64,000 nucleotides of DNA, from positions 1 through 64,000 of the forward strand of contig JAJRQY010000069.1 of NCBI GenBank assembly GCA_024280015.1, read 5' to 3'. Below are positions 8,799 to 44,284 of this stretch, piece after piece. The stretch comes from Actinomycetes bacterium (GTDB lineage Bacteria; Actinomycetota; Acidimicrobiia; Acidimicrobiales; SZUA-35). How positions within the stretch are numbered: the first letter of the stretch is position 1; the number at the start of each line of letters is the position of its first letter. The position numbers and the translations under genes were made by a program. The notes below the pieces were generated by a model. That model was not told where the DNA came from, searched no databases, and saw nothing but the letters and a program-made list of their open reading frames with translations.

Positions 8799-8894
8799 CT
8801 AGCTGCCGGGGACGAGGAGGAACAACTGCAAGGCTCCCGCAATCAGGATCGCCAGGAGCAGGATGACCATGATGGCCACGGTTCGGGCTCTCAT
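8799..8894 (-). CDS. 31-residue single-pass membrane micro-protein
   Basis: Too short for the ORF track. The minus strand reads MRARTVAIMVILLLAILIAG and continues for 11 hydrophobic residues to a TAG. The profile is a basic N-terminus then one transmembrane helix. Its ATG shares one base with the TAA of the SAM hydrolase gene (TAATG), the standard translational-coupling arrangement in this genome. Arg-Arg at the front predicts the N-terminus is cytoplasmic. No family is recognised. The support is overlap and clean hydrophobicity only. Confidence 0.55.
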   Translation of the reverse strand: MRARTVAIMVILLLAILIAGALQLFLLVPGS

Positions 8895-9817
8895 TACTGT
8901 CCACCTTCCAACAGCTCGGGATTGACAGGTGGGATCGTTGTTGGTTTGGTTTGGATGCTCACTGGGGATGGCGCCCCCTGCGGACCATCGGCTTCTCGAA
9001 GGGTGAGTTGTGATCCTTCTTGAGCGGCAAGTTCCATGGCAGCTGAACCTTGGTCGACGGCGAGGGCGACAAGCCCATAGGAGTCAATGATGACACCGAC
9101 CGAGCCGGTTCCAATATCGGCAAAGCTGACGACTCGCTTTGCCGTCCTCGTAGCTCGTCCTCCTTCTACCTGGATGAACTCACCCCAAACCTCAATGTCT
9201 TCCGGGTCGACATTGAGTTGCAGGTTTCCGAACCGATCAACCCACAACACCTCTGCGGTGATTGAGCCGTCATCGGCAACCTGGCTGACCGGCAGAATCC
9301 CCGGGACCAGTCCGGCGGGGTCCATCTGGGTTCCAAGTTCGGCAAAGGGCACCCCACTACACAGGTGGGCGGCGACAGGGGCGAAGACGTCTCGTCCATC
9401 AAAGGTCGGACCGGGAGCAGCCAGGTGGTAGTCGGTATTGTCCAGAATCACCGCACCGGTCGCTCCTCCAACCAGTGACACGGCGGGAGCGAACAAGCCA
9501 TTGTCGGGACCGATCAGATAGGCCGCGCCGTCGGCAACCTCGATGGCGACCGCCTTGCGGTTGGTGGCTACTCCAGGATCAACCACACCCAAGACGACTC
9601 CGGGTGCCATGTATTGCACGGCCCGGGCTAGAGCGAGGCCGCCGGCACGGATGTCATGAGGCTCAATGTCGTGACTGATGTCGATGACGGCGATGTCGGG
9701 CGCGATGGTGCGAATCACCGACTTGACCACCCCAACAAATTCGTCCTTCAACCCATAGTCGGTGAGAAAGGAGATGGTCGAAAGCTTCGGCTTCATGGCA
9801 AGATCAGGCTTCGTCAT
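8894..9817 (-). CDS. SAM hydrolase / S-adenosyl-L-methionine hydroxide adenosyltransferase family
   Basis: Cytoplasmic enzyme of the DUF62 family, which hydrolyses S-adenosylmethionine to adenosine and methionine and is related to fluorinases. It is 307 residues long. Clear motifs: ISFLTDYGLKDEFVG near residue 14 (catalytic Asp), HDIEPHDI, VVDPGV, IGPDNGLF, FDGRDVFAPVA and a C-terminal barrel starting WVDRFGNLQLN. The C-terminal 30 residues are a Pro-rich tail. It overlaps proC by ATGA, so the two are coupled. Confidence 0.92.
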   Translation of the reverse strand: MTKPDLAMKPKLSTISFLTDYGLKDEFVGVVKSVIRTIAPDIAVIDISHDIEPHDIRAGGLALARAVQYMAPGVVLGVVDPGVATNRKAVAIEVADGAAYLIGPDNGLFAPAVSLVGGATGAVILDNTDYHLAAPGPTFDGRDVFAPVAAHLCSGVPFAELGTQMDPAGLVPGILPVSQVADDGSITAEVLWVDRFGNLQLNVDPEDIEVWGEFIQVEGGRATRTAKRVVSFADIGTGSVGVIIDSYGLVALAVDQGSAAMELAAQEGSQLTLREADGPQGAPSPVSIQTKPTTIPPVNPELLEGGQ

Positions 9818-10608
9818 GAATTGGTGACTGCTCCAAGTTCACGAGACCGACTGGCGGCCGCCACCACCGCATCGATGAGTGCTCCTCTGACTCCTTGCTG
9901 CTCAAGCACCCGCAGTCCGGCCGCCGTTGTCCCCGCTGGGGTCGTCACTCCCGCCCGCAAAGCTCCCGGCTCTTCTCCGGTTTGTTGCAACATGGCCGCT
10001 GCTCCGGCCATGGTTTGATGAGCCAACGTCTTGGCGATCGGTCGAGGCAAGCCCGCAGTAACGCCAGCATCGGTGAGGGCCTCAGCAATCAGGAAGAAGT
10101 AGGCCGGGCCCGATCCGGACAGTCCAGTAACCGCATCCAGCTGGGGTTCGGTGACAAGTACCGCCTCACCGACTGCGGACAAGAACGACAGCGCCCATTC
10201 CAGGTCAGCTTCGCCGGTTGAGCTGCCGCCAGCGGCGGCCGAAGCACCAACCCCGACCAGTGAGGGCGTGTTAGGCATGATCCGGACAACGGGCGTGCTG
10301 GCCGGAACAACAGCCTCAATACTGCCAATGGTAATTCCTGCGGCAACCGAGGCAACCCGCGTCGGAGCTTCAAGCGCAGCGGCCGCAGCCAGAAGGTGAT
10401 GAGGTTTGGTGGCCAGCACGGTGTCAACCCCAGCTTGGGGCGAGTCAAGGACCACTAGTCCGGGAAAGAGTTCGCCCAGGGCTTGTCGTTGTTTTGGGTC
10501 GAGGTCAACAACGGCCAGATCTTCGGGTTGAGCCCAGCCCGAGGCAATCATGCCCCCTAGGAGAGCTTGTCCCATCTTGCCGCCGCCAACCATTTGCAGC
10601 TTTGTCAT
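9814..10608 (-). CDS. proC: pyrroline-5-carboxylate reductase
   Basis: Last step of proline synthesis: NADPH-dependent reduction of pyrroline-5-carboxylate. With the ATG at 10608 it has 264 residues, the normal size, and begins with the dinucleotide motif MVGGGKMGQALLGGMI. VVRIMPNTPSLVG and VTGLSGSGPAYFFLIAEALTDAGV are the family signatures. The track start at 10731 would add 41 residues before the Rossmann fold that are not part of the family. It is in a minus-strand run behind mshA and the YbjN-like gene. Confidence 0.96.
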   Translation of the reverse strand: MTKLQMVGGGKMGQALLGGMIASGWAQPEDLAVVDLDPKQRQALGELFPGLVVLDSPQAGVDTVLATKPHHLLAAAAALEAPTRVASVAAGITIGSIEAVVPASTPVVRIMPNTPSLVGVGASAAAGGSSTGEADLEWALSFLSAVGEAVLVTEPQLDAVTGLSGSGPAYFFLIAEALTDAGVTAGLPRPIAKTLAHQTMAGAAAMLQQTGEEPGALRAGVTTPAGTTAAGLRVLEQQGVRGALIDAVVAAASRSRELGAVTNS

Positions 10609-10736
10609 GGTCACCAAGCTACAGCTGCAAGGGTCAATTGGAGCGGAGTCGCTAGGGCTTCCCCGACCCCTGTGCAACACCGCTCCAACCAACGATGTTG
10701 ACAACTCTAGGTCGCCATAAACGTATTCCAACGTTG

Positions 10737-11198
10737 TTAAGTGAATTTAGACGCAAAACCTATTTGCAGCGCCGGACGGAAGAACTGTTCGACCCAGACA
10801 TAGACGGATCCGAGAACTCGATCCAGTTCATCCTCAGTCTCGATGAGTGAGTTGTCCAAGTGCCCTTCAAGGAAGATGCCATCCTCGGCCCCGACGGAAA
10901 ACTTGGCTCCGTACATCTTGTGGTTCCGCCTCAGAAGGTGAGCAAAGAACTCTGCTTCGTTCTCGATTGGCCAAGGCATGACATAGCACTCGAAGTACAG
11001 GCTTCGTTGACCCAGCTCAAAACGGACAGTACTGAAGTCCTTCTCTTCACCGGCGAGGCGTACAAACCAACGGCGATTGCCTGGAGTATCCCGCTCGACG
11101 GAGGCAACAGCAGGGTTCGTTTCCAACTGTTCATCCAGCCAATGATCGAGCACAGCCTCGAGCCGGGCCAGATCCTCTGAACTCTGCAGACCGGGCAT
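10737..11198 (-). CDS. YbjN-like (type III secretion chaperone fold) protein
   Basis: Cytoplasmic protein of 153 residues. Features: a helical N-terminus, then beta strands with LYFECYVMPWPIENEAEFFAHLLRRN and a C-terminal helix around LDRVLGSVYVWVEQFF, as in actinobacterial YbjN-domain proteins. The same neighbour of mshA occurs in Mycobacterium (Rv0486-Rv0487), which supports the call. Function is not established; the fold suggests protein binding. It starts 12 nt behind mshA, so is almost certainly co-transcribed with it. Confidence 0.85.
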   Translation of the reverse strand: MPGLQSSEDLARLEAVLDHWLDEQLETNPAVASVERDTPGNRRWFVRLAGEEKDFSTVRFELGQRSLYFECYVMPWPIENEAEFFAHLLRRNHKMYGAKFSVGAEDGIFLEGHLDNSLIETEDELDRVLGSVYVWVEQFFRPALQIGFASKFT

Positions 11199-11210: not shown

Positions 11211-12455
11211 CTACTCGCCGCAGGGGGCCAGAGTCTTGACTGTTACTTCACCGTAGATCTCGCGCAGTCGAGCGGCTGATGTGCTCCAGGTGTACTCGCG
11301 AGCGCCGGCCGCGGCAGAAACCGAGAGGCGACGAGCCCAAACCGGGTCACCAAGGATGAGATCAACCCATTGGGCGTAGACGGCAGGATCACGCGAATCG
11401 ACCAGATAGCCCGTGGTGCCGTGCTTGACCAGGGTCAACAAGCCCCCAACGGCGGAGGCAACAACCGGCGTTCCACAGGCAGCAGCTTCCAACGCAACCA
11501 AGCCAAAGGACTCAGAACGGCTGGGCACCAGGCACACGTCGGCGGCCCGATAGTAGGTGGAGAGCAGGTGGTGGGGTTGGGGCGGAACAAAGCGAACCCG
11601 ATCACTCAGGCCCAGATCAACAACCAGCTGTCGGATGCGTTCGACCTCATCGCTTCCACCTGCACCACTGGCATCACCAACGATCCAGAGCTTGGCGTCT
11701 TCCCGTTCCAGTTGAGCCAGGCTTTCAATCGCGACGCCAACACCTTTCAGAGGTTGGATCCGACCAACAAACAGCAGTAGCGGTGAATCGTCAGCTTCCA
11801 GGGCCCAGCGCGCTCCGGCTTGGCTGCCGGGCGAGAAGAAGGCTTGGTCAACACCAGGGGGAACGATCTCGACCCGGTCACGATCTACCTCATAGAAGTA
11901 GGCAAGCTGTTCGGCTTCGGGATGACAGTTGGCCAACACCACATCGGCGCAGTGCATCACATCGGCTTCGGCCAGGGCTCGCCGCTCCGGCTCAGGGTCA
12001 CCACTCACGGCCTTGACCCGAGCGAGGGTATGGAAGGTGGTGACTAAAGGCAAGCTCAACTTGCGTTTCACGATCTGACCAGCAACTCCCGACAGCCAAT
12101 AGTTGGCGTGGATCACGTCTGGCTCGAAGTCAATCAAATCATCAATGACACCCAAAGCGAACTCTTCTACCAGTCCCTCCAGTTGTTCCTTGGTGGCCTC
12201 GGGGGGCCCGGCGTCAATGTGGACAACATCGAAACCTGGTTCAACCTGCACTCGGCGAGGTAGGTCCTTGTCCCAACGACGAACATAGACACGACAGACC
12301 ACTCCGGCCTGGGCAAGGGCCGAAACAAGCTCGCGGACATAGACGTTCATACCGCCACCATCGCCTGTGCCCGGTTGGGCCAGAGGAGAGGTGTGTAAGG
12401 AGAGAACGGCGACCCGACGCACGAAGGGTTTCAACGTCTCACAACCTGGTTCCAT
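11211..12455 (-). CDS. mshA: D-inositol-3-phosphate glycosyltransferase (mycothiol synthesis)
   Basis: Transfers GlcNAc from UDP-GlcNAc to inositol-3-phosphate, the first step of mycothiol synthesis. It is a 414-residue GT-B, GT4-family protein. LSLHTSPLAQPGTGDGGGMNVYV at the N-terminus, HANYWLSG, and TTFHTLARVK are characteristic of MshA. The C-terminal donor domain has FVGRIQPLKG and the EX7E motif within SRSESFGLVALEAAACGTPVVAS. The operon partner YbjN supports MshA over sucrose-phosphate synthase relatives. The cell therefore probably uses mycothiol as its low-molecular-weight thiol. Confidence 0.93.
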   Translation of the reverse strand: MEPGCETLKPFVRRVAVLSLHTSPLAQPGTGDGGGMNVYVRELVSALAQAGVVCRVYVRRWDKDLPRRVQVEPGFDVVHIDAGPPEATKEQLEGLVEEFALGVIDDLIDFEPDVIHANYWLSGVAGQIVKRKLSLPLVTTFHTLARVKAVSGDPEPERRALAEADVMHCADVVLANCHPEAEQLAYFYEVDRDRVEIVPPGVDQAFFSPGSQAGARWALEADDSPLLLFVGRIQPLKGVGVAIESLAQLEREDAKLWIVGDASGAGGSDEVERIRQLVVDLGLSDRVRFVPPQPHHLLSTYYRAADVCLVPSRSESFGLVALEAAACGTPVVASAVGGLLTLVKHGTTGYLVDSRDPAVYAQWVDLILGDPVWARRLSVSAAAGAREYTWSTSAARLREIYGEVTVKTLAPCGE

Positions 12456-12476: not shown

Positions 12477-13013
12477 TCATTTCAGGACGGAGTCAATCGA
12501 CACTTCGCCGTCGCGGTAGCGGCGACCGATCTCCGCTTGGATGGCGTCAATTCGCTCGTGGAGCTGGCGACGAACACCAGAAAGTTCGGCTTCGATGTCA
12601 CCAATTCTCTCAAAGACCATGCGGAGCGAGCCATCGTCCAGCTTGTCGACGCCGGAGAGATCGCCGGGCGAAACAACCTTGTCCAACCGCTCAACCAGAG
12701 ACAGGGCGATTGGCCCCGGCTCATTAATGACAACGGCCCGGCCACTTGCGCCTCCGGAACTATCGCCACTCAGAATTTCGGGGAGATTGAAGAGGAGGCC
12801 AGGAACATCGGCTTCGCCCTCGGCCTTACCAGCCCGGCGCTGCAGCTCGTGACCAACAATGTCCAGACGGCCCTGAGAAATCCGCCGAACCAGCGACACA
12901 TCGTTCTCGGCCTGAGCGGCAGCAACCCGAGCCGACCTCAGATCGGGAAGAGACCGGTCAGTGATATCGGTAAGGGTGTCGTCATTGAGGAGATTGTCCA
13001 GCTGTTCGTTCAC
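12477..13013 (-). CDS. RsiG-like protein with two c-di-GMP signature motifs
   Basis: Probable c-di-GMP-responsive anti-sigma-type regulator. In Streptomyces, RsiG binds WhiG sigma factor when loaded with c-di-GMP through two copies of E(X)3S(X)2R(X)3Q(X)3D. Here motif 1 matches exactly (ENDVSLVRRISQGRLD, residues 36-51). Motif 2 matches except Q to H (EAELSGVRRQLHERID, 141-156). Each lies in a long helical stretch, with a linker between. I chose the GTG at 13013 (178 residues), since the track start reads into the upstream gene; the start is uncertain. It sits between the CdsA-like gene and mshA. No sigma factor lies in the window. Confidence 0.75.
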   Translation of the reverse strand: MNEQLDNLLNDDTLTDITDRSLPDLRSARVAAAQAENDVSLVRRISQGRLDIVGHELQRRAGKAEGEADVPGLLFNLPEILSGDSSGGASGRAVVINEPGPIALSLVERLDKVVSPGDLSGVDKLDDGSLRMVFERIGDIEAELSGVRRQLHERIDAIQAEIGRRYRDGEVSIDSVLK

Positions 13014-13072: not shown

Positions 13073-13981
13073 CTACAGCAACAACAACCAGAGAGGTCCA
13101 GCGATGAGCAGTGAGTCCAGGCGCCGCAATCCGGGTGCCCACGAGTCGCCACGGGGCAGGATGGCCGAGCCAAGAATCTGTCCCAGAGGACAGCAGATGG
13201 CCGTAAGAACAGCGAACAAGACCGCCCGTGGGCCATCGAAGGGGGAAGGTTGGGTGATGGCCAGGGCCGCTCCAGCAACCGCCAAAACAGCAATGCCGGC
13301 AATCGGTCCCTCAATGGCGTTTGCCGATCCTGTTCCAACCAGGTAGTCGCCAACTTCATAGGCGCTAACCAGAATCACCAAGGCAATAGCAGCCCCAACA
13401 CCCCGACCGGTCAACGCCACTAATGACCCGGCGGCGAGCCCAGCGGGAATAGAGGACCGGATCAAGATGCCGGTGAAGTCCAGCAGGGCTGCTTGTTGCG
13501 ACTTGGGACGGTTCTGAAGGCGCGGGGATGCCGCGTTCCCAGTCCCCGCTCCCGCAGAGTTCGCTCCTGAAACGTGGTGATCAACCCCAGACAATGAATA
13601 GGCAAAGGCAGCAAAACTCAGGATCACACAAGCCAAGCCAAGCCCGAAGGTCCCGGCCAGTCCCGACAAGGCCGTCAGTGCGCCAAATCCGGCGGCGACC
13701 CTGCGGTCAGAGGGAGCATGGAAAGCCCAAGCGTGCCCGGTCTGCAGACCAGCGATGCCGGCAACAACAACGGCAACACCCGCGACCGCCCATTGGGAGA
13801 GCACGATGGCCAAGACAACGGCGACAAACCACAAGACGCTCAGGGAGATCGTTGGTCGATCAGTTCGATAGGGAACGGCGTAGCGTTCGTTCTTCCAGCG
13901 CTGCTCACGAGCCTTGTTGCGATTCTGCATCGCCGCTGTTCGACGTTCCTTAGCCGTCGCCCTCATCGTTAGTTCGGGCAT
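13073..13981 (-). CDS. degenerate CdsA-like integral membrane protein
   Basis: Membrane protein of 302 residues: a basic N-terminus of about 45 residues, then about 7-8 hydrophobic helices. The C-terminal half resembles phosphatidate cytidylyltransferase: a GDYLVG element and, at the end, LGQILGSAILPRGDSW followed by GLRRLDSLLIAGPLW, which aligns with the CdsA signature. The KR-x4-KD part and the HGG of the signature are missing, and the Asp of the GD pair is Gln. Enzymatic activity is therefore doubtful. A true CdsA should exist elsewhere. A scaffold or lipid-binding role is conceivable but unproven. Confidence 0.55.
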   Translation of the reverse strand: MPELTMRATAKERRTAAMQNRNKAREQRWKNERYAVPYRTDRPTISLSVLWFVAVVLAIVLSQWAVAGVAVVVAGIAGLQTGHAWAFHAPSDRRVAAGFGALTALSGLAGTFGLGLACVILSFAAFAYSLSGVDHHVSGANSAGAGTGNAASPRLQNRPKSQQAALLDFTGILIRSSIPAGLAAGSLVALTGRGVGAAIALVILVSAYEVGDYLVGTGSANAIEGPIAGIAVLAVAGAALAITQPSPFDGPRAVLFAVLTAICCPLGQILGSAILPRGDSWAPGLRRLDSLLIAGPLWLLLL

Positions 13982-14443: not shown

Positions 14444-15061
14444 ATGGGAGTGACCACCCTGCTTCTGACTCGCCATGGCCAATCAACCTGGAATGCCGAG
14501 CGGCGCTGGCAAGGCCAAGCCAACCCACCGCTTTCTGCTCTTGGTCGAGATCAGGCGTACTTCGCCTCACGTCGAGTTGGTGCCGTTGACCTTGTTGCGT
14601 CTTCCCCCCAGCTTCGAGCCCTGGAAACCGCGACCATCATCGCCACCCAGCTAGGCCTCGAACCGGTGATCGTGGTTGAAGACTTGAAGGAACGCTCGGC
14701 CGGACCATGGTCAGGTCTCACCCGCGAAGAAATTGAACAAGAATGGCCAGGGTGGGTCGAATCAGGTGAGCGGCCCGAGGGATACGAGCTGGATGAACCC
14801 CTCTTCGCCCGAGTGGACCAGGCCCTTCGAAGCCTGGTCAGCGAGTACCCAGTGGAATCAATGCTGGTGCTATCTCATGGCGGAGTGATCACCACAGTTG
14901 AATCCAAGCTCGGTCGACAAGACGGCCGAGTGCCCAACCTTTCGGGACGGGTCATTCAGACCAACAACCAATCCCCAGGACAGATTGGCTGGTCTCTTGG
15001 GGAACAGATCCGATTACTGGATGATGACCTGTCAACCGGCGGCGACGGGATTCGGGTTTGA
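14444..15061 (+). CDS. histidine phosphatase superfamily protein (phosphoglycerate-mutase-like)
   Basis: Cytoplasmic phosphatase of 205 residues. The catalytic LTRHGQSTWN at residues 8-17 holds the nucleophilic His; LVLSHGGVI near 142 supplies the second His; Arg and Glu (LKERSAGPWSG) complete the pocket. Length and motif fit cobC/GpmB-type phosphatases rather than true phosphoglycerate mutase. The substrate is unknown. Its TGA overlaps the TTG start of the following metallopeptidase gene. Confidence 0.9.
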   Translation: MGVTTLLLTRHGQSTWNAERRWQGQANPPLSALGRDQAYFASRRVGAVDLVASSPQLRALETATIIATQLGLEPVIVVEDLKERSAGPWSGLTREEIEQEWPGWVESGERPEGYELDEPLFARVDQALRSLVSEYPVESMLVLSHGGVITTVESKLGRQDGRVPNLSGRVIQTNNQSPGQIGWSLGEQIRLLDDDLSTGGDGIRV

Positions 15062-27558: not shown

Positions 27559-27986
27559 CCGGAGCTGCCGAAACCGGCTTCACCGCGGTCATCGGGTGCT
27601 TCGGGCAACTGGGTGGTGGCGACCAAAGCGAAACTTGGAGCGGGCAGAACGAGAAGCTGGGCGATGCGGTCGCCCCGTTCGACCGTGTAAGGCTCACTGG
27701 ATGTGTTCAACAAGATCACCTTGATCTCACCTCGGTATCCCGAGTCGACGAGACCCGGGGCGTTCAACACGGTAATCCCATGATTCAGCGCCAAACCTGA
27801 CCGGGGAAGCACCAGTCCACAGGCCTGTTCTGGGACGGCAATGGCGAAACCCGTCGGCACAAGAGCTCGCTCACCAGGGCCAATGGTGACTCCTTGTCGG
27901 GCCGGCAAATCTGCTGCCGCGTCGCCGGCTCGCATCTGGGCAGGAGGTGCAAGGTCTGGGTCAAGGGCGAGTAAAGGTACATCCAT
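27555..27986 (-). CDS. dut: dUTP diphosphatase
   Basis: Hydrolyses dUTP to dUMP and PPi, keeping uracil out of DNA. It is 143 residues, a normal homotrimeric dUTPase. Motif 1 GDAAADL, motif 2 PRSGLA, motif 3 NAPGLVDSGYRGEI, motif 4 GDRIAQLL, and the C-terminal motif 5 RGEAGFGSSG are all present. The first ATG (27995) gives three more residues; I use 27986. It is divergent from orn with about 28 nt between. Confidence 0.95.
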   Translation of the reverse strand: MDVPLLALDPDLAPPAQMRAGDAAADLPARQGVTIGPGERALVPTGFAIAVPEQACGLVLPRSGLALNHGITVLNAPGLVDSGYRGEIKVILLNTSSEPYTVERGDRIAQLLVLPAPSFALVATTQLPEAPDDRGEAGFGSSG

Positions 27987-28014
27987 CAGACACATGACCC
28001 TAGCGAGGGGTAGT

Positions 28015-28593
28015 GTGTCACCCGTGCTGGCCTGGATGGACTTAGAAATGACCGGACTCGATCCGGCAAAACATGTGATCGTTGAGATCGCAACCCTGAT
28101 TACTGACGACGATCTGAACATCGTCGCTGAGGGTCCCGAACTGGTCGTTCACGCCACCGACGAAGAACTTGCTGGCATGGAAGACATTGTCGTCCAAATG
28201 CACACCAAGTCTGGCTTGCTTGAGCAGATCAAGGCCTCGACCCTGACCCTGGAAGAAGCGGGAGCACAGACTCTGGCCTTTCTACAGGAACATCTGGAAG
28301 AAGGCGCTGTCCCCCTCTGCGGAAACTCCATTGGCATGGATCGTCGTTTCCTGAGTGTCTACCTTCCCGAGATCGAGGAATACCTGCACTACCGGTCAAT
28401 CGATGTTTCCACCATCAAGGAACTCAGCCGTCGCTGGTACCCCAAAGCCTTAGATCGGGCACCGGGCAAGGCCGCAGCCCATCGTGCCTTGGACGACATC
28501 AGCGAAAGCATCAAGGAACTCCGGCACTACCGCAACACAGTCTTCCTCAGCCCCGAGCCAGCACCAGAAGCAGCTTCCAAAACGGATTCCTAG
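28015..28593 (+). CDS. orn: oligoribonuclease (3'-5' exoribonuclease)
   Basis: Degrades short oligoribonucleotides (nanoRNAs and the pGpG product of c-di-GMP breakdown) to mononucleotides. It is a DEDDh exonuclease of 192 residues. Motif I WMDLEMTGLD, CGNSIGMDRRFL, and YRSIDVSTIKEL with AHRALDDI (motif III, His-Asp) are all there. I chose GTG 28015 with GAGGGG upstream; GTG 28024 and ATG 28036 are alternatives. It is relevant to the RsiG-like gene, as Orn is the usual end point of c-di-GMP turnover. Confidence 0.94.
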   Translation: MSPVLAWMDLEMTGLDPAKHVIVEIATLITDDDLNIVAEGPELVVHATDEELAGMEDIVVQMHTKSGLLEQIKASTLTLEEAGAQTLAFLQEHLEEGAVPLCGNSIGMDRRFLSVYLPEIEEYLHYRSIDVSTIKELSRRWYPKALDRAPGKAAAHRALDDISESIKELRHYRNTVFLSPEPAPEAASKTDS

Positions 28594-36866: not shown

Positions 36867-37205
36867 CTAGACGTTGAATTCGAAGGTAGCGACCACCGTG
36901 GTATAAACCGCCAAGGCGACCACAATCCCAGCGGCGAACGCCATGGTAAAGATCTTGCCGTTGAGCATTTTCATGTCGAACCATAGGTGCATGAACACCC
37001 CAGCAACAATAACGAACTTGACCAGCATCATCACGATGAGCGGAACGACCAGGGCCGGTCCGGAGAATCCGAGATAGGACCACAACACCTCGAACGCAGT
37101 GATGACAGCCAACAAAAGGAAGACTAGCCAGTACTGGGTTTCGGTTGGATGAGCATGGTCGTCGTGGGACTCATGCTCGGTGGATGGGGTTGCAGTGTTA
37201 GACAT
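36867..37205 (-). CDS. ctaF: cytochrome c oxidase subunit IV (prokaryotic)
   Basis: Small subunit of 112 residues with three transmembrane helices: YWLVFLLLAVITAFEVLW, ALVVPLIVMMLVKFVIVAGVFMHLWFD and a C-terminal helix. The MHLWFD element in helix 2 is the hallmark of the bacterial COX4 family. The N-terminal 25 residues are His/Asp-rich. It begins 9 nt behind ctaE. Confidence 0.93.
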   Translation of the reverse strand: MSNTATPSTEHESHDDHAHPTETQYWLVFLLLAVITAFEVLWSYLGFSGPALVVPLIVMMLVKFVIVAGVFMHLWFDMKMLNGKIFTMAFAAGIVVALAVYTTVVATFEFNV

Positions 37206-37214
37206 GGTTCGCCT

Positions 37215-37913
37215 TTACGGAATGAGGTAGACGATGGTGAAAATTAGGACCCACACAACGTCAACGAAGTGCCAGTACAAGCCGACAAGCTCGACGGTCT
37301 CGGCTCGGTCTTGGTTGAGTTTGCCCTTGAACGAGAGCACAAGCAGGGTCATCAGCATGACAATTCCGCCGCTGACGTGGATCCCATGGAAGCCAGTGAG
37401 GGTGAAGAAGGCCGATCCAAGCAAGCTGCCGGTGAAGGAAAGTCCCTCTTCCTTGAAGGCAGTGAACTCGGCAATCTGACCGGCAATGAAGAACGAACCA
37501 AGCAGGGCCGTTGTCCCCAACCAGATTCGCAGGTTCTTATAGTCGGCTTCACTGATGGCCTTGTGAGCCAGCACCATGGCCAGCGAGCTCATCAACAAGA
37601 TGAATGAGCTAAGGGAAGTGAACGGGATATCGAAGAGGGGCTCAACAGACCCAGCGGCCCGCATTTCCTCGACCAGAGTGGGATTGGAGATCGAGTCGAC
37701 CACCACGGGGTTGCCAGCCAAGATCTCGGTCAGGAACCGAGCCTTGGACAGCAGGTAGGTGGAGATCAGAGCACCAAAGAGCAGGCACTCCGAACCAAGG
37801 AACAGCCACATGGCCAGCTTCATGTTGGACAGGTTCAGGCTGGTCGCATGCCCAGCATGCTCGTCCTCGACATGGTCGGTGGCCTGCTCGGCAACTACGG
37901 CGGCATCAGACAT
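37215..37913 (-). CDS. ctaE: cytochrome c oxidase subunit III
   Basis: Subunit of the terminal oxidase, 232 residues with five helices and a soluble N-terminus. MWLFLGSECLLFGALISTYLL, FFTLTGFHGIHVSGGIVML and GLYWHFVDVVWVLIFTIVYLI are standard for subunit III. ATG 37913 is inside the 3' end of ctaD (8 nt overlap); the track start adds an unnatural leader. The true E and H residues of the lipid-binding V are in place. Confidence 0.95.
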   Translation of the reverse strand: MSDAAVVAEQATDHVEDEHAGHATSLNLSNMKLAMWLFLGSECLLFGALISTYLLSKARFLTEILAGNPVVVDSISNPTLVEEMRAAGSVEPLFDIPFTSLSSFILLMSSLAMVLAHKAISEADYKNLRIWLGTTALLGSFFIAGQIAEFTAFKEEGLSFTGSLLGSAFFTLTGFHGIHVSGGIVMLMTLLVLSFKGKLNQDRAETVELVGLYWHFVDVVWVLIFTIVYLIP

Positions 37914-39888
37914 TGACGGTGCTCGCGATCTCGGCGTGATCAGACTTGTGATCGTCATGTCCGTGGGGAAGATCAAGATCATCGGCAGGCTCAAGGGCCC
38001 AGCCGTACAGGCTAACGACCATGAGGAAGCCTCCAGGGATCGTCAACCATAGCGAGAAGATCAAGCCGTAGCCGATGAGGGGCAGCGAAGCGGCCAACAG
38101 GAGCGGCCAATAGGACGGCGCAGGAAGATGAACGCCTTCACCGTTGCCGGGCTGGGCAATGTCGGCACCATGAGCGACCTTGCGCAACTTGCCGTTCTCG
38201 TCCTCGGCATACTTCTGATGCCAGAAGTCATCAACGGAGACAATCTGCGGGTCATAGTCAAAGTTGTGTTCTGGGGCTGGACTCTGAATTGACCATTCGA
38301 TGGTACGGGCGTCCCAAGGATCAGGTCCCGGGTTCGGCTTGCCGGCCTTGTTCCACCGATACAGAGACAGGAAGACGTTGGTGATGAAGAGCAACACGCC
38401 TGATGCGAGGATGAAGGAACCAACGGTTGCCCAGAAGTTCCACAGGTTGAATCCCATGGCATCGTCATAGGTCTGCATCCTTCGCGGCATTCCCTGCAAT
38501 CCGAGAATGTGCATTGGCCCAAAGGTGAGGTTGAAACCAACGACCATGGTCCAGAAGTTCCACTTGCCCCACTTCTCATTCAGCATGTGGCCAAACACCT
38601 TCGGCCACCAGAAGTAGAAACCGGCCATGAAGCCGAAGAGGGCGCCACCAAAGAGCACATAGTGGAAGTGGGCCACAATGTAGTAGGTGTCAGTTTGCTG
38701 AGTGTCCGAGGGGGCCATGGCGTGAGTAACACCAGACAGGCCGCCGACGGTGAACTGGGTGATAAGTCCAATGGAGAACAACATGGCGGTGTTCAGGGTC
38801 AACTTGCCGCCCCACAAGGTGGCAACCCAATTCAGGATCTTCACACCGGTTGGCACGGCGATAAACATGGTGGAAAGAGCGAAGGCGGTAACCGACAACG
38901 GTCCGATTCCAGAAACGAACATGTGGTGGGCCCACACACCGAAGCCCATGAAACCAATAGCAATGCCAGAAAAGACCATGAAGGGATAGCCGAAGATTGG
39001 TTTTCGGGCGAAGGTTGGGATGACCTCGGAGACAATGCCGAATGCAGGCAAGATCATGAGGTAAACCTCAGGATGGCCAAAGATCCAGAATAGGTGCTGC
39101 CACAAGAGCGGGTCTGCCCCTTGCTCGACGTTAAAGAAGTTGGCATCAAAGACCCGGTCCATCAACAACAAGACCTGAGCAACAGTGATGACGGGGATGG
39201 CGAACAGGAGAAGGAACTGGGTAACCAGGGACATCCACACGAAGATTGGCATCTTCATCAGGTCCATACCGGGGGCCCGCATGTTCAGGACCGTGGTAAT
39301 CAAATTGATGGCGCCGCTTAGAGAGGCAATGCCGGTGATCAGTAGTCCGACGTTCCAAAAGTCAATGCCGTGCGACGGTGAGTAGGCAACGCCATTGTTT
39401 GGTGCGTAGTTGAACCAGCCACCATCGGCACCTCCACCGAGGAACCAGCTGGAGTTCAGCATCAGCCCTCCGAGGAAGAAGCACCAGAAGCTGAAGGCGT
39501 TGATTCGGGGGAAGGCAACATCTCGGGCACCGATTTGCAAGGGCAACAAGAAGTTGGCAAAAGCAGCACCGATGGGCATCACCACCAAGAAGATCATGAT
39601 CGTGCCGTGCATGGTGTACACCTGGTTATAGGCATCTGCCGACAAGAAATTGCTATTTGGTGTAGCCAGCTGGATTCGAATGAGCAGGGCAGCAACCCCG
39701 CCAATCAGCATGAAGAATACGGCCGCTGAGCCATACATGATGCCGATCTTCTTGTGATCGACAGTCGTCAACCAGTCTTTCAGGCCAGTCTCTGACCGTG
39801 GCCGGGAGAAAACTCCAAGCGGATTGGCTACTCCAGGCTTGTCACCTTCGGGAAGGCTGTAGCGGAGGGGCTCGTTAAAGATCGCCAT
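37906..39888 (-). CDS. ctaD: cytochrome c oxidase subunit I (haem-copper core)
   Basis: Catalytic subunit, 660 residues. All ligands are there: His94 (MHGTIM), GHPEVY with His272, Glu274 and Tyr276, the CuB pair HH321-322, and the AHFHYV haem ligands His407 and His409. Asp123 in GARDVAF and the Tyr-His crosslink support a proton-pumping A-type oxidase. The C-terminus has extra helices (SYWPLLLAASLPLIGYGLI) and a His/Asp tail, longer than the 550-residue core, as in other actinobacteria. It pairs with ctaC and ctaE. Confidence 0.97.
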   Translation of the reverse strand: MAIFNEPLRYSLPEGDKPGVANPLGVFSRPRSETGLKDWLTTVDHKKIGIMYGSAAVFFMLIGGVAALLIRIQLATPNSNFLSADAYNQVYTMHGTIMIFLVVMPIGAAFANFLLPLQIGARDVAFPRINAFSFWCFFLGGLMLNSSWFLGGGADGGWFNYAPNNGVAYSPSHGIDFWNVGLLITGIASLSGAINLITTVLNMRAPGMDLMKMPIFVWMSLVTQFLLLFAIPVITVAQVLLLMDRVFDANFFNVEQGADPLLWQHLFWIFGHPEVYLMILPAFGIVSEVIPTFARKPIFGYPFMVFSGIAIGFMGFGVWAHHMFVSGIGPLSVTAFALSTMFIAVPTGVKILNWVATLWGGKLTLNTAMLFSIGLITQFTVGGLSGVTHAMAPSDTQQTDTYYIVAHFHYVLFGGALFGFMAGFYFWWPKVFGHMLNEKWGKWNFWTMVVGFNLTFGPMHILGLQGMPRRMQTYDDAMGFNLWNFWATVGSFILASGVLLFITNVFLSLYRWNKAGKPNPGPDPWDARTIEWSIQSPAPEHNFDYDPQIVSVDDFWHQKYAEDENGKLRKVAHGADIAQPGNGEGVHLPAPSYWPLLLAASLPLIGYGLIFSLWLTIPGGFLMVVSLYGWALEPADDLDLPHGHDDHKSDHAEIASTVNV

Positions 39889-39902
39889 GGGATCAATAGC
39901 TC

Positions 39903-41183
39903 CTAATCGAGGGTCGCCAAGTAGGCGACGAGATTGTCAAGATCAATATCGGACAGGGTGTCGAAGGAGGGCATGCCGCGCCTGCCTTCGGCAAACATTG
40001 CCTTCCGGCTTGGCGCATCCTTGATCCACGCCAACACATCGGCCTCATTGAACTTGCCAATATCGGACAGATTCAGGTACTGGTCAGTGTCCAAGTTGTC
40101 ATCATCGGGATCGATCCCGAAGTACTGACTGTAGGTGGCGCCAGCAAAGACACTTCGGCTAGCGAAGTGGGTCAGATTCGGGGCCGCGCCATTGAGCAGG
40201 TCAGCTTCGAAATCTTTGGGATACGCGTCTTGCAGATCCTGGTCGTCATTGCTGACAACATGGCAACGAGAGCACTGGGAGACAAAGACGTCATAGCCGG
40301 CACGTTCATCGGTGCCCTCGGCTGGGACTTCTGACGGCGCACTCTGTTCGGCCAACCACTGATCGAACTCGGCCTCAGGAAGCACAACGACGCTCATCCG
40401 CATTCGTGCATGGGACAGACCACAGAACTCGGTGCACCACCCGTTGTACTCGCCAGGCTCATCCGCATGGATTGACCAGTAGGTCAGGCGCCCGGGAACG
40501 GTGTCTCGCTTTCCGTTGAGGCGCGGAATCCAGAAGGAGTGCACAACGTCGCGAGAGGTCAGGGTTAGGTCGACCTGTTGGCCTGCGGGAATGACCAGCT
40601 GATTGGGGACCGAAAGGTCATCGTCATCAAGCGCGATGTTGAGTGGCCATTCCTTGTCGTCCTGGTCGCCGGTTCCTTCGGGTCCATACAACTCGCCGTC
40701 ACCATCGGCATCTTCGAAGAAGCCATCACCATCAATGTCATAGCGGTATTCCCACCACCACTGGTTGCCAATAACCATCACGTCAAGTTCGCCCGGCGCG
40801 TTGTCCTCTTCCAGCTGCCAGATGGTGTTGACCATGGGGACGGAGATGGCGGCCAAAAAGATGGCTGGGGCAATAGTCCAACCAAGTTCGGCCACCTTGT
40901 GGCCATGGACCTGGGCCGGGAGGTCGTTCTCATCATAGTCCTCGGGCTTGACTCGACCCTTGATGGTGAGGGCAATAGTACCGCCAACCACCAGTATGAA
41001 AACAACGAGGACAATCCACCAGATGTGGACCATGGAGTCATAGATGGTTTGAGCCTTCTTGCCGCGTGGCTCAAAGGTGTTGAGGGGCTTGTCGTCGGCG
41101 CACGAAGCGGCCAGCAACGTCAACGCCAAGAGGGTCACGCCACCGCGGACATTGAAACGTCGCAAGGGATTCCTTGAGGTCAT
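39903..41183 (-). CDS. ctaC: cytochrome c oxidase subunit II with fused cytochrome c (caa3 type)
   Basis: Membrane-bound electron-entry subunit, 426 residues. Lipobox LAASC (Cys28), two helices, then the cupredoxin CuA domain with CTEFCGLSHARM (Cys250, Glu252, Cys254, His258, Met261; His215 upstream). At the C-terminus CSRCH (304-308) is a CxxCH haem-c site, with GMPSF near 405 as Met ligand. Between QWWWEY and the CuA core is an unusual Asp-rich insert (DIDGDGFFEDADGDGEL, 149-165) that looks like a Ca2+-binding loop. ctaD follows 14 nt later. Confidence 0.96.
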   Translation of the reverse strand: MTSRNPLRRFNVRGGVTLLALTLLAASCADDKPLNTFEPRGKKAQTIYDSMVHIWWIVLVVFILVVGGTIALTIKGRVKPEDYDENDLPAQVHGHKVAELGWTIAPAIFLAAISVPMVNTIWQLEEDNAPGELDVMVIGNQWWWEYRYDIDGDGFFEDADGDGELYGPEGTGDQDDKEWPLNIALDDDDLSVPNQLVIPAGQQVDLTLTSRDVVHSFWIPRLNGKRDTVPGRLTYWSIHADEPGEYNGWCTEFCGLSHARMRMSVVVLPEAEFDQWLAEQSAPSEVPAEGTDERAGYDVFVSQCSRCHVVSNDDQDLQDAYPKDFEADLLNGAAPNLTHFASRSVFAGATYSQYFGIDPDDDNLDTDQYLNLSDIGKFNEADVLAWIKDAPSRKAMFAEGRRGMPSFDTLSDIDLDNLVAYLATLD

Positions 41184-41186
41184 GAG

Positions 41187-41978
41187 TTATTCGCCTTCAC
41201 CTTCGCCGTGGCCACCGTCATCAGCCCCATCGCTTACTCCCTGATGCTCAAAGTCTCGGATCCCTTTTTGGGCACCGAAGATACCGCCGCCGAGAATAGC
41301 CAGAGCACCGACGACCATGATGGTAGAGACAAGGCTTCGTGGCAGGTCCCGCTTGGACATCAGCACGGCAAGACCAAAGACGGTCAGGGTGACAATGGCG
41401 CCGATCACGACCGCAGCAACCGCTGAAACGGTAAGGAATACTCGGGAGCCGGCAATGGCAATGGTGCCGAACAACAGCATGCCAAGCATTGGAACCTCGA
41501 TTGGCCCAAGAACGCGCGAACGGATGATGGCATTGGCTTCGGGGTCACCAGATGCCCGGTCAGACCAAGCCGTGATCATCCACTCGATGGCCATGACGAC
41601 CAAGGTGAGGAGGCCAAGGACTAAGAAGGCCTTGCTCATGGCCAGGCCAATGATCAACAAGGCCACACCAAAGGCGGTGATGGGAGCCCAATAAACCGAG
41701 CTAAGGGTTGGCAGTGCGGGAACCGTTGAGACTCCAGCCGAATCGGCCATTGCTTGGGCATCACCGTCACGAGTAGCAATGCCAACCATGGCCAGAGCAA
41801 AGGTCACAAGGCTGGTAAAGATCAGGATGGTGTAACCAAGGTGAGCGCCGACGCCCCCCTTGTAGCCGACGCTGACCACACCAATCGGGTCACCGCCGGT
41901 GACTAAGCCGTAGACCATGGCACCAAGAAGCGCTGCTCCTGACAATGCCAATAGATATTTTGAACCCCAGGTGAGCAT
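41187..41978 (-). CDS. unknown polytopic membrane protein in oxidase operon
   Basis: 263 residues, six to seven predicted helices (LLALSGAALLGAMVYGLV, GYTILIFTSLVTFALAMVGI, VYWAPITAFGVALLIIGLAM, FLVLGLLTLVVMAIEWMI and others). The tail is acidic with His/Gly (DDGGHGEGEGE). No haem or copper motif can be seen. It sits between the subunit-III-like gene and ctaC, 3 nt before ctaC, so is co-transcribed. Probably an accessory subunit of the oxidase; I do not know a family name. Confidence 0.7.
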   Translation of the reverse strand: MLTWGSKYLLALSGAALLGAMVYGLVTGGDPIGVVSVGYKGGVGAHLGYTILIFTSLVTFALAMVGIATRDGDAQAMADSAGVSTVPALPTLSSVYWAPITAFGVALLIIGLAMSKAFLVLGLLTLVVMAIEWMITAWSDRASGDPEANAIIRSRVLGPIEVPMLGMLLFGTIAIAGSRVFLTVSAVAAVVIGAIVTLTVFGLAVLMSKRDLPRSLVSTIMVVGALAILGGGIFGAQKGIRDFEHQGVSDGADDGGHGEGEGE

Positions 41979-41990
41979 CGTTTGACGGTC

Positions 41991-42608
41991 CTACTTGGTG
42001 ATGTAGATGGCGTACCAAACAACGAGGTACAGCACAACGGCGACATTCCAGAACAGAGCAGCGCCATAAATGCCTTCAACATCTTTGGCGTTGTAGTTGC
42101 CACCTAAGGTACGCAATCCCATGACTATCACGTACAGCATTGCTGCGGCCATGATCAACATGTGGGCACCGATAAGGGCGTAGAACAAGGGGGGACGAGC
42201 CAGCTCGTCCCCGGCGGCAGGCATTCCCATAATCTCAAGTAAGAAGCCAGTCTGGGCAAGATAGGCGAAGCCAAAGACAACACAAAGCGACAAGGCAATG
42301 TGGGTGTTTGCTCGGTCGTCATGGCGAATGGCTGATACAGCCCAGGCCATAGCCACCATGGACATGACCAGGGTGATGGCCATCATGTTGGGCTGGGTCA
42401 GGGGGATGGTGACTCCCTTTGGCAGCCAGATTTCGCCTTGGGCCAAGACCGCAGCCCGGCTCTGCACATAGATGCCAAGCAAGCCAGCCATGCCCATGGT
42501 TGCCGCCATGGCAGCTAGGGCGGTGCCGATCACCAACAAGCGAGGCCGAGAGGCCTCGGGTGCAGCAACAGTTTCGGGGAGGGCGTCGAAGACGGTGATA
42601 TCGGTCAT
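41991..42608 (-). CDS. haem-copper oxidase subunit III-like protein
   Basis: 205 residues, five helices, resembling subunit III: WLPKGVTIPLTQPNMMAITLVMSMVAM, LFYALIGAHMLIMAAAMLYVIVM and ALFWNVAVVLYLVVWYAIYI match the pattern of CtaE, including the G-x-H of helix 4. It is more divergent than the CtaE at 37215. ATG 42608 shares one base with the stop of the subunit-I-like gene (TGATG), so the two are translated together. It may pair with that ligand-less partner. Confidence 0.75.
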   Translation of the reverse strand: MTDITVFDALPETVAAPEASRPRLLVIGTALAAMAATMGMAGLLGIYVQSRAAVLAQGEIWLPKGVTIPLTQPNMMAITLVMSMVAMAWAVSAIRHDDRANTHIALSLCVVFGFAYLAQTGFLLEIMGMPAAGDELARPPLFYALIGAHMLIMAAAMLYVIVMGLRTLGGNYNAKDVEGIYGAALFWNVAVVLYLVVWYAIYITK

Positions 42609-44284
42609 CAGGCTTCCTCTGCCTTGTTCGGCGTGGGTTGGCTCAGTACGGCCATACCGCTCGTTGACTCCATGACTGGTGCGGAAGCAAAGTTGCCAAG
42701 GGAGGGTGGTGAAGACGTGGTCCACTCAAGTGACTGCCCAGACCACGGTTCGGGTGTTGTTCCCGTTCCAAGTGCGGTGCGAGCCAGGTTGGCAAGAAAC
42801 ACTAGAGCACCCAGGCCGAGTACAGCGAAGCCAATGGTGGCTAGCACATTGAGCACCTCCACCCCATCCTTTGGTCCAACACCGATGCCAGGAAGTGCTG
42901 GTTGCTCCAGCATGCCGCTGATGACATAGGCGCCGCCCCAGGCAATCGTGCCAGCAGAGACGAGCAAGATGCTCAGCATGCCTAGCTTGTCGTCCAGCGA
43001 ACGGCCCCAAATCTTGTGACCCCAATGATGGACTGAGCTCACGATTCCGAGCAAGACCGCCCCGAGGATCAAACCACGAATGCCTTCGTGGAACGAAGAG
43101 TCGGCAAGGCGCAGGGCTGAGCTGACGTCGATCTCACTGTTTGAAGCATCGGCAACGAATTCGAGAATTGGTTCGATCAGCGCCAGGAGGGCAACGAGGG
43201 CGCCAACCGCAAGTAAGGCCATAGCGGCCATGCCAGCAACAAGCGGGGTGTTAGTGGCCGGCTTACCGTTCTTGACCGCATCAGCGGCCATGCCAAGGAG
43301 AAGGAGGATCGGAACCACGGCGGCAAGAACTCCGAGGACAAGCACGGCATTGTCAAACTCGATGGCTCGGCCACGACCTCCGAAAGTCAGGATGTCTGCC
43401 CCGAACGAAAGGACAAGTAACGAGCCGATCAAGGCAAGCGCTGGCTTGTGGAATCGGACCCTTGACTCGGATTGGGTCGCGACAACATCGAGTCCCATGC
43501 CCAGGACAGGAATGCCGACCCAGTACAGAGCCGGTGCCAGGCTGAGGCTATTGAGGATGGACAGCAGGGCTTGACGATCGACCTTGGTGGACAAGTAGTC
43601 AGCGCTGACATCGGCGTAGGCCAAGCCAAGCTCGCCAATCAGGATCGGGAGGGTGAGGAGCCCAAGAAGGGAGAAGACCAGGAATGACCAGGTGCTGATT
43701 GGCACGTGTTCCAACCGCATGCCGATGGTTCGAGCACCGAGGATGGTGGTTGCGATGCAGACAAAGGCCCAGCAGAAACCGACAAGCATGGTTCCAAGGG
43801 CCAAGATCCACAGCAGGACGGCATCCTTGGAACCACCGGCTGGTCCGCCGTTGGCCACCACAGCCAAGATCAGGATTCCGGTAGCGAGAAGCCACGTCCA
43901 AAAGGCGCCAGCTGCCCCACGGCCAAAGGCGATGGCTGATGCGCCAACCTGGAGTGGTGTGAGGTAGGTGGCTAAGCCGATGAGGACGGGGATGACACCA
44001 CCAAAGAGCAGGAGGGTTCTTCCCGCTGACCAAGCTTGAACGAATTGTCCCTCGTCTTCAAACAATCCAACGGAGCCGAGGTCGATCAGTTCGATGCTGG
44101 CAATCGTGGACAAGACCAGAGCTAGGAGCACAAAGGCGGCGCCAGCACCAATCCACATCCGACCGATCGTCTTGTGATCGCTGGTGCTCAAGACGCGTTC
44201 CAGAGCGGGCCTGGCAGCGGAATCGGAGGTCTGGATTGAGTCAGTCGTTGAATCAGTCTCGGTGCGAGTTTGAGTCAATGCCAT
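42608..44284 (-). CDS. ligand-less haem-copper oxidase subunit I-like protein
   Basis: 558 residues with about 12 or more helices. It aligns with CtaD in STSDHKTIGRMW, YLTPLQVGASAIAF (CtaD: LLPLQIGARDVAF), SLAPALYWVGIPVLG (CtaD: GHPEVYLMILPAFG) and HHWGHKIWG. The catalytic residues are gone: His94 is Gly, His272 is Ala, Glu274 is Ala, HH is LT, and the AHFHYV motif is absent (the region reads SSFHEGIRG), although Tyr254 is kept. It cannot be an oxidase. It leads a run of subunit-III-like, unknown, ctaC, ctaD, ctaE. A structural or regulatory subunit is possible. Confidence 0.75.
   Translation of the reverse strand: MALTQTRTETDSTTDSIQTSDSAARPALERVLSTSDHKTIGRMWIGAGAAFVLLALVLSTIASIELIDLGSVGLFEDEGQFVQAWSAGRTLLLFGGVIPVLIGLATYLTPLQVGASAIAFGRGAAGAFWTWLLATGILILAVVANGGPAGGSKDAVLLWILALGTMLVGFCWAFVCIATTILGARTIGMRLEHVPISTWSFLVFSLLGLLTLPILIGELGLAYADVSADYLSTKVDRQALLSILNSLSLAPALYWVGIPVLGMGLDVVATQSESRVRFHKPALALIGSLLVLSFGADILTFGGRGRAIEFDNAVLVLGVLAAVVPILLLLGMAADAVKNGKPATNTPLVAGMAAMALLAVGALVALLALIEPILEFVADASNSEIDVSSALRLADSSFHEGIRGLILGAVLLGIVSSVHHWGHKIWGRSLDDKLGMLSILLVSAGTIAWGGAYVISGMLEQPALPGIGVGPKDGVEVLNVLATIGFAVLGLGALVFLANLARTALGTGTTPEPWSGQSLEWTTSSPPSLGNFASAPVMESTSGMAVLSQPTPNKAEEA

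Follow-up and report, generated by a model that had tools for sequence, protein, structure and literature searches.

The gene at 12477–13013 of the window (the whole stretch of DNA analysed, 64,000 nucleotides) comes from an uncultured Acidimicrobiales bacterium and is predicted to encode its RsiG, an ordinary member of the RsiG family by its sequence. Very probably, this protein is a c-di-GMP-armed brake on the sigma factor WhiG encoded on contig C79 of the same genome, and its linkage to mshA is an inherited gene order without thiol control. Family, predicted fold, motif conservation, conserved contact residues of the partner and co-occurrence with WhiG come from our own analysis. Binding of c-di-GMP, formation of an RsiG–WhiG complex and anti-sigma action would follow by analogy with the solved Streptomyces and Rubrobacter complexes.

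Table 1. Coordinates of rsiG, its motifs and neighbours in the window, and of two sigma factor genes elsewhere in the genome (G000)
Feature	Position	Strand	Remarks
rsiG, twin-motif RsiG-family anti-sigma factor, 178 aa	12477..13013	-	GTG start at 13013-13011, end 12477
c-di-GMP motif 1, E(X)3S(X)2R(X)3Q(X)3D	12861..12908	-	ENDVSLVRRISQGRLD, residues 36-51, first long helix
c-di-GMP motif 2, E(X)3S(X)2R(X)3H(X)3D	12546..12593	-	EAELSGVRRQLHERID, residues 141-156, second long helix
mshA-like GT4 glycosyltransferase	11211..12455	-	TIGR03449 381.9 bits, under the cut-off of 462.5, yet by far the best family
YbjN-domain protein	10737..11198	-	PF10722, E 8e-7
proC-like (pyrroline-5-carboxylate reductase) ORF	9814..10731	-	named from sequence; true start probably downstream of the listed TTG
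SAM hydroxide adenosyltransferase-like ORF	8894..9817	-	named from sequence; closes the conserved block
Predicted membrane protein upstream of rsiG	13073..13981	-	no family over cut-off; same place in L232-L239 and L241-L247 (close relatives)
Histidine phosphatase (phosphoglycerate mutase-like), divergent upstream neighbour	14444..15061	+	PF00300, E 2.6e-36
Orn (oligoribonuclease)	about 27841-28593	+	WMDLEMTGLD; true start internal to the ORF
whiG	G000:C79:5729-6628 (L119)	+	order comM-dprA-whiG-M23-rpsB-tsf-pyrH-frr, genes named from sequence
WhiG/FliA-clade paralog	L120:12367-13374 (G000:C165)		near gyrB-gyrA; without contact residues G and R

Family membership, motifs and predicted fold

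The sequence-only reading had proposed an RsiG-like protein with one perfect motif and one carrying H in place of Q, and its reading frame, strand, coordinates and motif positions all proved correct. The protein scores 93.4 bits in two copies against the Pfam RsiG family (PF22802, cut-off 27). A phmmer search aligned residues 10–178 with Streptomyces RsiG (6pfj chain T, E 6.9e-15), and the Rubrobacter RsiG structures came next with E about 1e-3. The motif E(X)3S(X)2R(X)3[Q/H](X)3D is found once on each long helix, with a start-to-start spacing of 105 residues compared with 98 in S. venezuelae RsiG; when the protein was shuffled 200,000 times, two motifs never appeared.

An AlphaFold model built from an alignment of 69 homologs of the class (pLDDT 90.2, pTM 0.82) consists of two long helices with one motif on each. 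In a Foldseek search of the PDB, the only matches with E <0.001 were the RsiG chains 6pfv_T and 6pfv_E (TM 0.65–0.72), and the model reproduces the antiparallel coiled coil of the solved RsiG.

RsiG has been described from Streptomyces, in connection with sporulation, and from Rubrobacter, in connection with type IV pili, and a twin-motif form was reported earlier in three of four Acidimicrobiales species (PMC8325347). Hence the present protein is a further twin-motif RsiG of a class, Acidimicrobiia, from which RsiG was already reported, and it shares class and architecture with those earlier examples. For those examples, the main text of PMC8325347 contains no partner or neighbourhood analysis, whereas here the class-wide link to WhiG and the chromosomal segment were tested. 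With S. venezuelae RsiG (PDB 6pfj/6pfv, AmfC) it has in common the twin motifs, a predicted monomeric antiparallel coiled coil with a long linker, the C-terminal RRYR(D/E)GE region and a WhiG partner with K..GR contacts. However, identity is about 36%, motif 2 carries H instead of Q, the gene lies in an rsiG-mshA-ybjN-proC segment, and the host is an uncultured Acidimicrobiales bacterium with flagellar genes. The RsiG of Rubrobacter radiotolerans (PDB 7lq2-7lq4) follows the same motif and ligand logic with a WhiG partner, but that protein is short, single-motif and homodimeric, whereas here both motifs lie in one chain.

WhiG as the candidate partner

RsiG, WhiG and MshC were each scored as present or absent in one set of 198 genomes of the class, and WhiG scores were bimodal. 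RsiG and WhiG were both present in 120 genomes and both absent in 71; RsiG occurred without WhiG in 2, and WhiG without RsiG in 5. This association had a p value of 6e-45, and of 9e-13 when counts were collapsed by genus (79/1/5/15 for both, RsiG alone, WhiG alone and neither), although these p values ignore relatedness. Joint absence recurs in some ten distinct families or genera: it was seen in families f5, f7, f10, f13, f15, f22 and f38, and also within f4, f27, f29 and f36, whose other members keep both genes. Several, not all, of the seven discordant genomes (five with WhiG and no detected RsiG, two the reverse) are incomplete. RsiG presence in the class follows WhiG and not MshC. The co-occurrence with WhiG is indirect support for RsiG binding WhiG and inhibiting the transcription that it drives. 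Across this large, mostly uncultured class the RsiG/WhiG pair is common, and many lineages have lost RsiG together with WhiG.

The sequence-only reading would fail in a genome devoid of c-di-GMP enzymes or of a sigma-28-type factor, and this genome encodes 21 GGDEF domains and three strong sigma-28-type (FliA/WhiG-clade) factors, on contigs C79, C159 and C165. The sigma factor on C79 aligns with S. venezuelae WhiG (6pfj) at E 1e-90 and 307 bits, compared with 158 bits for the best FliA, and conserved whiG synteny has been described (PMC4255298). The C159 factor, FliA, lies in a flagellar cluster beside flgK- and flgL-like genes and several flagellins. In both solved complexes WhiG contacts c-di-GMP through the residues that are K57, G61 and R62 in S. 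venezuelae (PMC8325347). The corresponding stretch reads KYVAGR in C79 WhiG, EHIVNR in C159 FliA and KHVVFQ in the C165 paralog, and since C79 alone of the three has the K..GR contacts, it is singled out among the sigma factors of this genome. Among 50 WhiG orthologs from the class, 48 retain the K..GR pattern, and G is replaced by S in the remaining two. Conserved contact residues together with the whiG locus therefore pick out C79 WhiG as the probable partner of RsiG.

According to our model, the RsiG monomer would form an antiparallel coiled coil in which each long helix carries one c-di-GMP motif. At high c-di-GMP, RsiG would bind a c-di-GMP dimer and, thus armed, hold C79 WhiG off RNA polymerase; falling c-di-GMP would release WhiG.

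Output of the switch and the flagellar FliA

WhiG/FliA-type promoters were searched for in the genome itself as exact TAAA-N14-16-GCCGATAA and with one mismatch at N15 and N16, and the reversed pattern served as control. These searches gave 0, 1 and 2 matches, not above the control, in a test of limited power, as the Rubrobacter study allowed up to two mismatches (PMC8325347). A class-wide search for the exact pattern likewise gave no visible excess over control. This lack of promoter enrichment in genome and class speaks against our explanation and leaves the predicted output of the switch unproven. In family f27 a handful of matches closely precede genes for secreted proteins, but their number is too small to support a conclusion. 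In two related genomes of our collection, TAAA-N16-GCCGATAA stands a few bases 5′ of a gene for a CAP/SCP-like secreted protein (L201:5799-5826 and L202:5745-5772, both on the minus strand); the spacer has diverged between the two, rsiG is close by, and a WhiG target is possible.

This bacterium is flagellated, and RsiG might instead restrain its flagellar FliA and so control flagellin expression directly. All 31 genomes of the class with flagellin are RsiG-positive (p 8e-8), and no FlgM was found in WhiG-bearing Actinobacteria (PMC4255298), as would suit such a role. Control of the FliA/FlgM type, however, would call for a FliA that keeps the RsiG/c-di-GMP contacts, and of the three residues that contact c-di-GMP, two are missing from the FliA of the flagellar locus. 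Flagella also cannot be the general target of RsiG, because 91 RsiG-positive genomes are without flagellin, whereas almost all have WhiG. Moreover, no consensus sigma-28 promoter was seen upstream of the flagellins in the flagellar cluster. Direct control of FliA by RsiG is hence very unlikely, and FliA was set aside as a partner on its missing contact residues and the flagellin-less RsiG-positive genomes. The cluster itself (L121) encodes, besides its own FliA, five tandem and very similar flagellins with a common conserved leader, CTCTCACGGAAGGA.

Returning to WhiG as the partner, we see about even chances that the sigma-28 family is divided in flagellated Acidimicrobiia. FliA without contacts would run the flagellum, and RsiG-guarded WhiG would run a separate c-di-GMP-controlled programme, for example of pili or surface proteins, which would be distinct from both sporulation and thiol metabolism. 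WhiG in simple motile actinobacteria has been noted as unstudied (PMC4255298). The Acidimicrobiia offer comparison material for its role in such motile, morphologically simple organisms, and in Rubrobacter the evidence points towards type IV pili (PMC8325347).

The motif 2 histidine and the mshA neighbourhood

Among 78 RsiG proteins of the class, neither motif shows any variation at S and R, and the E and D of motif 2 hardly vary. The Q position is variable: in motif 1 it is Q in 55 and H in 23, and in motif 2 it is H in 48, F in 19, Q in 9 and Y in 2. In a single-protein search, all 16 closest named relatives (49–59% identity) had H in motif 2. Schumacher et al. (2021) gave the motif consensus as [Q/H], with H able to make the same guanine stacking contact, and H was seen there mainly in motif 1 (PMC8325347). 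The H of this protein, suspected at first of being a special change that may alter ligand binding, is consequently ordinary, because it is the commonest residue of the class at this position and is published as compatible with stacking; a private change of this RsiG is ruled out by the other class members with H. H as the norm of motif 2 in the class and F in one family make a small addition to the published picture.

The same variability could be taken to mean that H, or H and F across the class, has altered the ligand or weakened c-di-GMP binding, with another nucleotide sensed or WhiG bound constitutively. The motif 2 site is not Q in 69 of the 78 proteins, and in family f2 its F is often accompanied by E→D in motif 1. 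But with the invariant S and R, the nearly invariant E and D, a histidine judged capable of the stacking contact and a WhiG that keeps its own c-di-GMP contacts, such a change of ligand seems very unlikely. The f2 proteins (loci such as L056, L059, L063 and L064) have F at the stacking site, and WhiG is also more diverged at the f2 loci with F in motif 2, with about 50% identity.

The adjacency of rsiG and mshA was described correctly in the sequence-only reading: mshA is downstream on the same strand after a gap of 21 bp. Among 77 RsiG loci of the class, conserved neighbours include an mshA-like glycosyltransferase downstream on the same strand (67), ybjN (58), proC (48) and the SAM hydroxide adenosyltransferase (58). 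In most relatives (e.g. L233:8563, L234:8585 and L237:8587) and in other classes, a conserved gene for an XRE-type HTH protein, about 130 aa long, lies between rsiG and mshA. No XRE gene lies between 12455 and 12477 of the window, which accounts for the short gap here, and likewise none was found in L236, L244 and L246. Families without an MshC-like protein keep the segment; in these, asparaginase and GNAT-like genes separate rsiG from a diverged glycosyltransferase. Other classes of the phylum have the same order of rsiG, asparaginase, XRE, glycosyltransferase, ybjN and proC. The arrangement rsiG-XRE-mshA-ybjN-proC is therefore best read as a stretch of ancestral chromosome that several classes have retained, and the mshA linkage as inherited gene order.

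That RsiG regulates mycothiol synthesis from within an mshA operon, tying c-di-GMP to thiol metabolism, is suggested by the short gap, the frequent downstream mshA-like gene and an MshC-like protein in the genome (408 bits), yet we give it next to no credence, because the segment persists where MshC is absent and recurs in other classes, and other genes separate rsiG from mshA in relatives and in MshC-less families. Nor does RsiG presence follow the mycothiol pathway: many RsiG-positive families are without MshC-like protein, and genus counts of RsiG against MshC (50/30/17/3, p 0.07), with MshC scored by an operational threshold as no class genome reached the curated cut-off, run opposite to the direction expected from a thiol link. 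Our results thus keep the adjacency and remove a tempting but unsupported link between c-di-GMP and mycothiol. Orn, which ends c-di-GMP degradation, is indeed encoded in the window, as had been pointed out, but it is a housekeeping gene 15 kb off and no evidence ties it to RsiG.

An asparaginase-like gene lies directly 3′ of rsiG in MshC-less families (L088, L100 and L137) and in L201 and L202, and one adjoins rsiG in two of five genomes of probable Streptomyces type (L254 and L255). Elsewhere in the window, two ORFs resembling cytochrome oxidase subunit I (37906–39888 and 42608–44284) are found in what appears, judged from sequence, to be one cluster on the minus strand (36867–44284).
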